64,000 bases of DNA. Origin: an uncultured Acidobacteriaceae bacterium (GTDB taxonomy: Bacteria; Acidobacteriota; Terriglobia; Terriglobales; Acidobacteriaceae). A program made the translations under genes and the position numbers. Under the pieces are notes generated by a model. It was not told where the DNA came from. It did not search any database and saw only the letters and a program-made list of their open reading frames with translations. The stretch covers positions 1-64,000 of the forward strand of contig CAIVDV010000015.1 in NCBI GenBank assembly GCA_903904755.1, given 5' to 3'. Below are positions 23,677 through 27,066 of this stretch, piece after piece. Positions within the stretch are counted from its first letter, which is position 1, and each line of letters begins with the position of its first letter.

Positions 23677-23790
23677 CTAGCTCAGCTTCTTCCTCTGGGA
23701 TCCCCATTTTGCCGCAAGCAAGGCTACATAACCGAGATGGATGACCCAGGTGACGATGAAGGCCGCGACCATGAATTTTTGTCCGTTCAT
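23677..23790 (-). CDS. ccmD: CcmD-like small membrane protein, 37 aa
   Basis: A 37-codon frame, ATG 23790 to TAG 23677, starting MNGQKFMVAAFIVTWVIHLG. One membrane helix is followed by a basic tail (KWGSQRKKLS), the typical plan of CcmD: short, single-pass, with a conserved Tyr after the helix start and a positively charged cytoplasmic end. CcmD helps release holo-CcmE from the CcmABC complex. It lies 63 bp after ccmC in the expected order, which supports the call despite its small size. Confidence 0.82.
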   Translation of the reverse strand: MNGQKFMVAAFIVTWVIHLGYVALLAAKWGSQRKKLS

Positions 23791-23853: not shown

Positions 23854-24561
23854 TTACTCGGCGGCGAGTGCGGCAGCAGCCCGGGCGTTTTCAATCTTCT
23901 GCTGGCGGCGTTCGACGTAGACTCGAAACACAAGAATCAGCAGACCCCACACCGCCCAGGACAGTACATTCCAGCCAAAGGCGGCGAGCATGTGTGGATC
24001 CTTGATGCCAGAGTCATCACCACCACCGAAAACGGGTGCTGGGTGCTGGGTGCGCCACCAGCGGTTGGCCATGTAAACAATGGGCACGTCGAGCGCACCA
24101 AAGACTGCGAGAACGGCAGCCAGCGTCTGCATCTGCGGGCCGGCGGCAAACTTGCGCAGCAGCAGGTAGCTGACGTAAATGAGCCACAGCACCAGGGTAG
24201 TGGTCAGGCGGGCATCCCATGTCCACCAGATGCCCCAGACCGGGCGGCCCCAGAGAGGCCCCGTGGTGAGCACGACGGTGCAGAAGATGACGCCGACTTC
24301 CGCGCCGGCCAGGGCCCAGGCATCTGCCGCCTGGGCAACGGGAGCGTTGCTGCGGCGGGTGGCCAGGTAGACCAGCGAGGCGAGGAAGCTGATGGCGAAG
24401 AAGAGAAACGCCAGCATCGCGTTGGGGACGTGGTAGTAGAAAATACGCTGCACATCGCCCATCGTGGCTTCCATGGGAGCGGCATACATCGCCTGGTAGT
24501 AGCCCCAGATCATCAGGGCGACGGTGACCAGAACACTGACTGAAACCAGCAGTTTCTTCAT
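23854..24561 (-). CDS. ccmC: Haem exporter/CcmC subunit of cytochrome c maturation
   Basis: 235 aa, six membrane helices, with the tryptophan-rich haem-handling motif WGIWWTWDARLT and conserved His residues on either side (IFYYHVPNA; the second near DPHMLAAFGW). CcmC transfers haem to CcmE in the periplasm. It sits between ccmB (53 bp upstream) and ccmD. Confidence 0.95.
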   Translation of the reverse strand: MKKLLVSVSVLVTVALMIWGYYQAMYAAPMEATMGDVQRIFYYHVPNAMLAFLFFAISFLASLVYLATRRSNAPVAQAADAWALAGAEVGVIFCTVVLTTGPLWGRPVWGIWWTWDARLTTTLVLWLIYVSYLLLRKFAAGPQMQTLAAVLAVFGALDVPIVYMANRWWRTQHPAPVFGGGDDSGIKDPHMLAAFGWNVLSWAVWGLLILVFRVYVERRQQKIENARAAAALAAE

Positions 24562-24614: not shown

Positions 24615-25319
24615 TTACTCTGCCTGCAAGACAGTGTCGAACAGCAGCAGGCTAACCGTCATGAAGATTATGTCGTACCCGGCCAGCATCTTGATCCAGA
24701 GCAGGTGCGGGTCACTGCCGTCGCCGGTGAGGATGGTCTTGACCGAGAGGACCATGGCCAGCAGGGCGGGCAGAAAGATGGGGAAAAGAATCAGTGGCAG
24801 CAGCAGGTCGCGGCTCTTGCAGCGCAGGCTCATGGCCGCGAAAAAGGTTCCGTTGGCGACCAGCGCCCATGTGCCCAGTGGTATCACAATGGCGAGCAGC
24901 CAGGTATCTCCCAGTGGGTGGAGGTTGTAGAAGATGAAGAAAACGGGACCCAGGACGACCTGCACGATGCAGACGAAGAAGAAGTTCGTGAGGACCTTCG
25001 CAAAGAAGAGCGCGGCGCCGTCGGCGGGAGTCATGCGGAGCGCGTCGATAACCTGATGGCGAGTTTCGCGCGCCCATGCCTGGTTGAGCAGGCTCACCGA
25101 CGCAAACATGGTGGCGACGCAGAGGACACCGCCTGCGATTTGGCGGCTGACCTCAAGGGTCGGGTCAAAGGCGATGGAGAAAAGCACAACGACCAGCAAC
25201 GCGTAGAACAGCATGGAGGTGACGGCCTGCCAGGAGCGCCATTCGATGCGGAGGTCTTTTTGGAGATGGGTCCAGACGAGGGCGAGCCAGGATTCGCGAT
25301 GGGTGACGTGGATGCTCAT
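24615..25319 (-). CDS. ccmB: Cytochrome c maturation ABC transporter permease CcmB
   Basis: 234 aa, about six membrane helices. The opening THLQKDLRIEWRSWQAV, then LNQAWARETRHQVIDALRMTP and GTWALVANGTFFAAMSLRCKSRDLLLPLILFP, is characteristic of CcmB. With CcmA it forms the ABC unit that drives release of haem-loaded CcmE from CcmC. Its ATG overlaps the ybaK stop by 4 bp. Confidence 0.94.
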   Translation of the reverse strand: MSIHVTHRESWLALVWTHLQKDLRIEWRSWQAVTSMLFYALLVVVLFSIAFDPTLEVSRQIAGGVLCVATMFASVSLLNQAWARETRHQVIDALRMTPADGAALFFAKVLTNFFFVCIVQVVLGPVFFIFYNLHPLGDTWLLAIVIPLGTWALVANGTFFAAMSLRCKSRDLLLPLILFPIFLPALLAMVLSVKTILTGDGSDPHLLWIKMLAGYDIIFMTVSLLLFDTVLQAE

Positions 25320-25816
25320 CGGGCATGCTCCTCGGGTTGGACGGACTTGGTCAGATCAGTAACCGTTGCTTTGGCGGCAAGGATGTAGTCCAGGGGGCTC
25401 AGGACAATCTGGGTGCCGCGGGTACCGGCGGAGACACTGATTTCGCCGAAGAGCTCAACAGTCTCATCGACGAAAACCGGGTATGCCTTTTTGGCGCCGA
25501 ATACGGTGACTCCGCCGCGGATGTAGCCCGTCAGGGGCTGGACGTCCTTGAGCGAGACCATTTCTGCCTTGCGGACATTGGCGGAGCGGGCGAGCTTCTT
25601 GAAGTCGAGCTCGGCGTCGCCGGGGATAACGGCAAAGAAGTAATCGTTCGGGCCGGCGGTGGTCAGCAGGGTTTTGAAGACTTGCTCGGCGGGCATGCCG
25701 ATTTTGCGGGCTACCGAGGTGGCAGTCAGGTCTTCCGGGTCTACCTCGTACTCCAGAAGACGGTAAGGTACGCCGAGACCGTCAAGGAAGCGCGCGCCGT
25801 TGGTTTTGGTACTCAC
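25316..25816 (-). CDS. ybaK: YbaK/EbsC-type Cys-tRNA(Pro) deacylase
   Basis: 166 aa, the full length of the family. Motifs: ATSVARKIGMPAEQVFKTL, YFFAVIPGDAELDFKKLAR, LTGYIRGGVTVFGAKKAYPVFVDET and SAGTRGTQIVLSPLDYI. YbaK hydrolyses Cys mischarged on tRNA(Pro). Here it lies inside the ccm operon with 4 bp overlaps on both sides (ccmA upstream, ccmB downstream), so it is translationally locked to haem-export genes. That may be chance packing, or reflect a link to cysteine or CxxCH proteins; the sequence cannot decide. Confidence 0.93.
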   Translation of the reverse strand: MSTKTNGARFLDGLGVPYRLLEYEVDPEDLTATSVARKIGMPAEQVFKTLLTTAGPNDYFFAVIPGDAELDFKKLARSANVRKAEMVSLKDVQPLTGYIRGGVTVFGAKKAYPVFVDETVELFGEISVSAGTRGTQIVLSPLDYILAAKATVTDLTKSVQPEEHAR

Positions 25817-26514
25817 AGGGAAGGGCTCCCTTCTTCCAGGCTGGCCACGCGGCCTGCGCGCAGGGTGAGGACCCAGTCTGCGATCGGGGCGGCAAGTTCG
25901 CGCTGGTGCGTGGTGAGTACGATGGTGCGATTGCCGGTGCGGAAGCGGGCGAGAAGGGCGACCATCTGGTGCGCGCTTTCCACGTCCATGTTGGAGAATG
26001 GCTCGTCGAGGAGCAGCAACTCTGGCTGGGAGAGCAGAACACGGGCAAGCGACGCGCGCTGGCGCATGCCTTGGGAATACTGGCCGAGGGTACGCTCGAG
26101 AGCCGGGTCAAGGTTGACCTGGCGTAAAGCTTCTTCCGGGCTGAGGCACTCGCGGCCCTGGTAGAGGCGGGCGAAGTAAGTAAGATTCTCAACGCCGGTC
26201 AACTCGTCGTAGAGCATGGGCGCGTGCGACATGTAACCGACGCGTTCACGGGCCTCAATCGGAGTCAGGTCGCCAAAGAGACGGACAGTCCCCGAAGTCG
26301 GCGCGAGCAGGCCGGCAAGGATGCGCAGCAGTGTGGACTTCCCTGCCCCGTTTTCGCCGAGCAGGACGTAGCACTTGCCCGGCTGGAGTGTTACAGAAAT
26401 CTGGCGCAGGGCGGCGAAGGCTCCGAAGAGGCGCGAGACCTGCTCAACCCGCGCCTGCGGGGCCGGTTCCGAGTTCAATTCCTTGACGGCGGGCTTCGGA
26501 GCGTTCTGCGTCAT
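25813..26514 (-). CDS. ccmA: Haem ABC exporter ATP-binding protein CcmA
   Basis: 233 aa ATPase. Walker A GENGAGKST, signature YSQGMRQRASLARVLL, Walker B LLLLDEPFSNMD and the switch His in VLTTHQREL are all intact. It powers CcmB and drives release of holo-CcmE. About 30 polar residues precede the domain. It overlaps ybaK by 4 bp and starts 6 bp after ccmE. Confidence 0.9.
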   Translation of the reverse strand: MTQNAPKPAVKELNSEPAPQARVEQVSRLFGAFAALRQISVTLQPGKCYVLLGENGAGKSTLLRILAGLLAPTSGTVRLFGDLTPIEARERVGYMSHAPMLYDELTGVENLTYFARLYQGRECLSPEEALRQVNLDPALERTLGQYSQGMRQRASLARVLLSQPELLLLDEPFSNMDVESAHQMVALLARFRTGNRTIVLTTHQRELAAPIADWVLTLRAGRVASLEEGSPSL

Positions 26515-26520
26515 GCAGGG

Positions 26521-27066
26521 TTACTGCCCTGCCGTTGTGGTGTTGTTGACCTGCTCAGGCGCTGGTGCCGGGGCGGCAGAGGCGCGCTTGTCCGACGCGG
26601 GAGCCGCGGAACCGGCCGGGGCTGCGCCGGGAGCGGCCGGAGCGTACTTCGAGGCGCACTTGGCCTGAAGCTGCGTGGCATGGAAGACACCGTCGCGGCC
26701 GTAGGTGCCGATGGCGAGGGCCTGGGCGTCGCCCTTGAAGGTATCCGGCGGAGGCTCGGTGCCGTCGTAGACAACCTTGACGTTCAGCGCGTCGCCGGTG
26801 GCCTTCGGATTGTGGCTCTCAAACTGGGTGAGCACGAAATTGACGTGGGTACCAGCCTGCTGGATGGTGTCGGGCTTGACGAAGCCATCGAGGCGCAGAT
26901 TGGCGCTGTACGCCTTGTCGCCCATGCCGGCCATCTCAGGGATGGTGACAAAGTAGCTCTTGTTGGAAGCCTGCGCGGTGAAAGCCAGGTAGCCGATGAC
27001 GCCGAGGACAATGACAACGGCAGCGCCGATGCGCATCGATGAATTCTTCTTGGCAGATGTACTCAT
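26521..27066 (-). CDS. ccmE: CcmE-type haem chaperone with CxxxY instead of HxxxY
   Basis: 181 aa. One N-terminal membrane anchor (about residues 11-31) and a periplasmic OB-fold match CcmE: VKVVYDGTEPPPDTFKGD and ALAIGTYGRDGVFHATQL precede the haem-attachment site. There the usual His is replaced by Cys137 in AKCASKYAP (codon 26656-26658), while Tyr141 is kept. This CxxxY form is known from archaea and some sulfate reducers, in a reduced Ccm machinery lacking CcmH. An Ala/Pro/Ser-rich tail follows. The rest of the operon is ccmA-ybaK-ccmB-ccmC-ccmD; no ccmF, ccmG or ccmH is in the window. Confidence 0.85.
   Translation of the reverse strand: MSTSAKKNSSMRIGAAVVIVLGVIGYLAFTAQASNKSYFVTIPEMAGMGDKAYSANLRLDGFVKPDTIQQAGTHVNFVLTQFESHNPKATGDALNVKVVYDGTEPPPDTFKGDAQALAIGTYGRDGVFHATQLQAKCASKYAPAAPGAAPAGSAAPASDKRASAAPAPAPEQVNNTTTAGQ

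Follow-up and report, generated by a model that had tools for sequence, protein, structure and literature searches.

A cysteine-type CcmE haem chaperone in an Acidobacteriaceae genome, and the pairing of such chaperones with cysteine-rich CcmH proteins

Either His or Cys has been named as the ligating residue of the haem chaperone CcmE (PMC12285233), and the Cys form has been described in delta-proteobacteria, Chloroflexi and Firmicutes in a 2011 review (PMC3601427). In that review the motif is CPSKY in 25 of 36 genomes with a Cys-CcmE, with F for Y in four. The closest described system, System I* of Desulfovibrio, has a CxxxY CcmE together with CcmABC and CcmF, and lacks CcmH and CcmG (Goddard 2010, as given in PMC3601427). 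Absence of CcmH was a mark of System I* in its original description of 2006 and was dropped in the review, according to which about one third of the bacteria with a Cys-CcmE keep CcmH (PMC3601427). The co-occurrence of the two proteins is therefore already in print and not new. Covalent attachment of haem to the Cys is reported for the D. desulfuricans protein (PMC3601427). In Methanosarcina acetivorans, which has CcmABCEF with a Cys-type CcmE, Cys120 is needed for haem, and Cys and His are not interchangeable (PMC9084895). For D. vulgaris CcmE, non-covalent haem binding through the same Cys has been described (PMC3884852). Archaea generally lack CcmD and CcmH, with CcmH homologues reported only from Ferroglobus placidus (PMC4429474). 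The breaking of the stable Cys-haem bond in CcmE, and the role of CcmH, are called unclear in the review (PMC3601427).

The stretch of DNA analysed here, 64,000 nucleotides from an uncultured Acidobacteriaceae bacterium (the window), encodes a periplasmic haem chaperone of this type at 26521..27066 on the minus strand, an ATG-initiated open reading frame of 181 aa. The protein matches PF03100 (E = 3.3e-20; 72.7 bits, cut-off 24.6). In an AlphaFold2 model built from 18 aligned sequences (pLDDT 81.7), a single long helix at the N-terminus precedes the strands, in agreement with one membrane helix followed by an OB fold, and the top three Foldseek matches of this model are the solved CcmE structures 8ce8_E, 1lm0 and 1j6q. 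In the motif QAKCASKY, where a classical protein has HxxxY, Cys137 occupies the position of the haem-binding residue of E. coli CcmE, His130, and its codon (26656..26658, read from 26658 to 26656 on the minus strand) is TGC. Four residues further lies Tyr141 (26644..26646, minus strand), at the site of the Tyr that ligates the haem iron in classical CcmE (PMC3884852). The original prediction of a CcmE with CASKY in place of HxxxY is borne out on all these points: judged by its sequence, the protein is the Cys-type ("System I*") form already described in archaea and Desulfovibrio, with CASKY for the commoner CPSKY.

On the minus strand ccmE is followed by ccmA, a YbaK-like gene, ccmB, ccmC and a candidate ccmD. 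The ABC ATPase CcmA (25813..26514, minus strand) scores 138.1 bits against TIGR01189 (cut-off 131.6), and the membrane subunit CcmB (24615..25319, minus strand) matches PF03379 (E 5.1e-30). CcmC, the haem-handling membrane protein (23854..24561, minus strand), has a WWTWD stretch in its translation and matches PF01578 (E 7.3e-30) and, under its cut-off, TIGR01191 (E 4.4e-36). Directly after it, at 23677..23790 on the same strand, the candidate ccmD encodes 37 aa with one hydrophobic segment; it was assigned on position and shape, and gave no Pfam match. The gene between ccmA and ccmB (25316..25816, minus strand) encodes a YbaK-like aminoacyl-tRNA editing domain (PF04073, E 1.7e-26) and occupies the same position in 17 of the 22 other loci of the family that we looked at; we know of no tie between such editing genes and haem.

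Profile matches place CcmA, CcmB, CcmC and CcmF in the genome. The one CcmF, on contig 68 (PF16327, 181 bits), has the motif WGGYWGWD, and two proteins belong to the CcmH family (PF03918, 69.2 and 73.2 bits, cut-off 25). The gene for CcmH1 shares a single base with the end of ccmF; the protein reads MMCTCGCAQVLLECNHVGC, with the motif MMCTCGC...ECNHVGC. CcmH2, on contig 32 with a cytochrome c gene nearby, has MAPCCYSQ, and the redox motif LRCxxC is absent from both. The separation of ccmF and ccmH from ccmE-A-B-C is also seen in single-contig genomes of the family, as in G201, where ccmE lies at about 2.97 Mb and ccmF at about 0.81 Mb. The genome search for CcmG gave seven weak matches to TIGR00385, none of them over the NCBIfam cut-off, so that no gene is assigned to the periplasmic reductant. 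A profile search of the assembly (4.22 Mb, 97.5% complete) returned one CcmE match, with no second CcmE, His-type or otherwise, and 27 matches to Cytochrome_CBB3, 24 of them over the cut-off, which leads us to expect a functional maturation pathway served by a Cys-type chaperone. Of the original interpretation, the Cys-type CcmE thus stands, and its link to a CcmH-less system has to be given up for this genome in view of the two PF03918 matches. Its suggestion that a ccmFGH set would render the Cys form accessory is contradicted by the sole-copy status of ccmE and by the cytochromes that call for maturation; of that set, CcmF and CcmH are present, and CcmG has the seven weak matches given above.

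In contrast to Desulfovibrio System I* (PMC3601427), the window genome thus has two CcmH-family proteins, keeps ccmF/ccmH apart from ccmE-A-B-C and carries CASKY; in contrast to the archaeal system (PMC9084895), it has CcmH and a candidate ccmD in addition to the shared Cys-type CcmE, CcmABC and CcmF. With the classical System I of E. coli it shares the CcmE fold, CcmABC, CcmF and the CcmH family, but the His of CcmE is replaced by Cys, and CcmH has MCTCGC...CNHVGC and no LRCxxC.

Since the sole CcmE is of the Cys type, CcmF and CcmH are present and the 24 cytochrome c domains have to be served, and since the Cys is reported to bind haem in the relatives from D. desulfuricans and M. acetivorans (PMC3601427; PMC9084895), ccmE-A-[ybaK]-B-C and the candidate ccmD in the window very probably make up the haem-export half of a cytochrome c maturation pathway of the System I* type, which CcmF and a Cys-rich CcmH from another contig would finish. 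By analogy with these relatives, we infer that CcmE binds haem covalently: CcmABC(D) would load haem onto Cys137, with Tyr141 as the likely iron ligand, and holo-CcmE would pass it to CcmF and the Cys-rich CcmH, which are encoded together and would attach it to CXXCH apocytochromes. Counting against this pathway are the non-covalent haem of D. vulgaris (PMC3884852), the lack of a CcmG over the cut-off and the departure from CPSKY. The D. vulgaris report could mean that Cys137 holds haem by coordination, with no thioether; we consider this rather unlikely in view of the covalent binding reported for D. desulfuricans (PMC3601427) and of the haem-stained band that is lost in the C120A variant of M. 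acetivorans (PMC9084895).

Among the 217 genomes of Acidobacteriota searched, CcmE was matched in 139, CcmH in 109 and CcmF in 141, CcmF being found in all 139 genomes with CcmE. The CcmE motif was read in 131 of these 139 (the other eight are outside the motif count) and has Cys in 115 and His in 16; the Cys type is the usual form, and no exception, in the sampled Acidobacteriota that have CcmE. All 23 genomes read from the family of the window, itself included, have Cys (24 sampled genomes of the family have CcmE). A sequencing error at 26656-26658, or a decayed accessory gene, can be dismissed, as the column is Cys in all 23 of these genomes and in 115 of the 131 motifs read across Acidobacteriota, and the gene is the only ccmE matched in its genome. 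In line with the view that the form is little described for Acidobacteria, our literature search listed no paper describing it there, its one full match being a study on Paracoccus. A CcmH match accompanies the Cys-type CcmE in 86 of 115 acidobacterial genomes, as against 16 of 16 with the His type; 29 of the 115 have no such match, so CcmH does not appear to be strictly needed.

Less expected than the Cys-type CcmE is a CcmH with extra cysteines, which in the genomes compared is nearly always paired with a CxxxY CcmE. The comparison covers 146 genomes in which both motifs were read (81 from Acidobacteriota, 32 from Chloroflexota, 16 from a mixed set of named genomes and 17 from the phylum to which a Desulfobulbaceae genome belongs). 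With CxxxY (n = 102), CcmH has an extra downstream Cys in 95 genomes, is read only in an APCC form in seven and is canonical in none, where "extra Cys" denotes any Cys that follows the first Cys of the motif at a distance of 8-21 residues, a definition made after the sequences had been seen, which makes the table descriptive and not blind. With CxxxF, CcmH is canonical in 17 of 18 genomes, the exception (G513) combining CPSKF with an extra-Cys CcmH, and it is canonical in all 26 genomes with HxxxY (22) or HxxxF (4). Of the 86 Cys-type acidobacterial genomes with CcmH, 65 contributed a CcmH motif, read from part of the CcmH copies per genome. For Chloroflexota, 40 of 131 genomes with CcmH were sampled around that gene; both proteins were obtained in 32, and 31 of these obey the rule. 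The phylum of G218 has CcmH in 20 of 197 genomes, with CcmE in 17 of the 19 searched. A scan of named records (N handles), taking the best 80 of 554 confirmed matches, lies outside the 146-genome count, because some of its rows duplicate genomes of the unnamed sample, and inside both the CcmF tree and a set of 174 distinct CcmH sequences whose genomes also yielded a CcmE motif. In this set CxxxY goes with 121 extra-Cys and 9 APCC proteins, CxxxF with 16 canonical and one extra-Cys, and HxxxY/F with 27 canonical. The window genome pairs CASKY with CTCGC...CNHVGC; in Chloroflexota, a CPTRY CcmE occurs with the CcmH CPVCENTPLDVCPTEAC and a CPSKF CcmE with CPVCQGESVADS.

Cys-rich CcmH proteins have CxCGC, then CxC(G) or CNHxGC, and some members (Desulfosporosinus, Desulfobulbaceae) keep a plain CxxC with one more Cys. 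A profile of 17 such proteins aligns to the CcmH N-terminal domains 2KW0 (E 3.5e-12) and 2HL7 (E 9.1e-12). Read by eye in the printed alignment, the extra Cys falls on the conserved Ser of ADS in both structures, and many members have CxCxC where these have CxxC. The model (pLDDT 85.9) of a Cys-rich relative from locus L198, which stands in for the window genome's own CcmH, has 2kw0 (E 0.024) and the three-helix 2hl7 (E 0.029) as its only high-probability matches, both weak, with a TM-score of 0.60 on the target. No mention of a Cys-rich CcmH was found in the titles and abstract beginnings of the open-licence matches listed by our search, nor in the excerpts of the CcmE papers cited above. On sequence grounds, the pathway with this CcmH appears to be a variant for which the literature searched gave no description, its CcmE being a known form.

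The pairing may reflect nothing but shared descent, with two old sub-lineages of the cluster (CxxxY with a Cys-rich CcmH; HxxxY/F or CxxxF with a canonical one) inherited as blocks. On a tree of 236 CcmF sequences, four changes of CcmE class and three of CcmH class suffice, which implies few independent switches, and hence that descent explains much; joint switches of both would number at most about two. The genomes with a canonical CcmH fall mainly into a single clade, in which CxxxF, HxxxF and HxxxY all occur. The CxxxY Chloroflexota neighbour this clade and are separated from it by a node with a support of only 0.109, and three His-type genomes of Acidobacteriota (family f20) lie away from the clade. 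Even with the motif cut out, a tree of CcmH still parts largely by class, the extra-Cys, canonical and APCC classes together requiring 11 changes, where shuffling gives a mean of 63.8 and a minimum of 55. Descent alone accounts less well for the few extra-Cys proteins (G171, G001, G016, N238 and N244) that group with canonical ones in this tree, and for the absence of a canonical CcmH from every CxxxY genome read. It also sits uneasily with a C-to-H change inside the canonical-CcmH clade (an HGPEF group beside a CPSKF genome, support 0.938) that leaves CcmH canonical. Shared descent remains the leading reading, and we slightly favour it as a full explanation; the extra Cys is a mark of the CxxxY branch and was probably inherited with it.

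Functional coupling is plausible, if less probable than inheritance in blocks. The extra Cys of CcmH could work with the Cys/Tyr CcmE, for instance by reducing or resolving the chaperone Cys as haem leaves, the two sites having changed together. The near-complete association of the classes, its recurrence in Chloroflexota and the alignment of the extra Cys with the Ser of ADS are in favour of such coupling; the few changes on the CcmF tree, the CPSKF genome G513 and the 29 Cys-type genomes without a CcmH match speak against it. As a tentative extension, the CcmE residue that carries haem might form one co-adapted unit with the CcmH active site. In such a unit a Cys/Tyr CcmE would work with no CcmH or with an extra-Cys CcmH (Cys for the canonical Ser), since the chaperone Cys would have to stay reduced, or be set free, while haem is handed on, and CxxxF chaperones would link it to the His system. 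With natural intermediates (CxxxF, HxxxF), a sequence rule connecting both positions offers a direct handle, through single-residue swaps, on the release of Cys-bound haem and on the role of CcmH.

Alternatively, the extra cysteines might bind a metal such as zinc, with loss of thiol reductase work. The succession of CxCGC and CxC(G) or CNHxGC recalls a zinc knuckle, and the L198 model has short strands with high pLDDT in that region, but the CxxC with a single further Cys in Desulfosporosinus and Desulfobulbaceae provides too few cysteines for a four-Cys site, and we regard this reading as doubtful. The extra Cys possibly has a redox or metal role, beside being a mark of its lineage.

Several further features of these loci were observed. 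In a number of acidobacterial families CcmF and CcmH are read through in a single frame of roughly 820-975 aa and look fused (L131, L132, L133, L152, L156, L159-L162, L164, L169 and L170). The second class of CcmH, with APCC(W/Y)xQ replacing LRCxxC, occurs at L009:9606-10061 (minus strand) and among L059-L068, and is the only CcmH read in seven Cys-type acidobacterial genomes. Upstream of the second ccmH, at about L009:7480-8000 (approximate, from open reading frame translations), a low-complexity repeat translates into Lys/Ala/Arg from one strand and into Leu/Pro or Cys/Phe from the opposite strand. L245 and L256 each contain two CcmE-like motifs, CPSKY with CPHRY or CPENY, possibly from two closely spaced copies of CcmE.

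In the window genome, a third Cytochrom_C_asm match scores 84 bits, against a CcsB cut-off of 187.6, and lies beside genes that we take, by eye, to be hemA and hemC; given this score and these neighbours, it looks like HemX and was rejected as the CcsA side of a real System II, which may otherwise exist as a second route. The gene directly after ccmH1 encodes 93 aa that include a single hydrophobic segment and give no match over a cut-off; the product may resemble the N-terminal part of CcmI. A 446-aa protein encoded after ccmFH (L005:9111-10451, minus strand; also L370-L389) has a weak carboxypeptidase-regulatory-like match and homologues in 17 of 20 ccmFH loci of the family, with weaker ones in loci of Chloroflexota, Latescibacterota and Dadabacteria; it is possibly an unnamed maturation partner.
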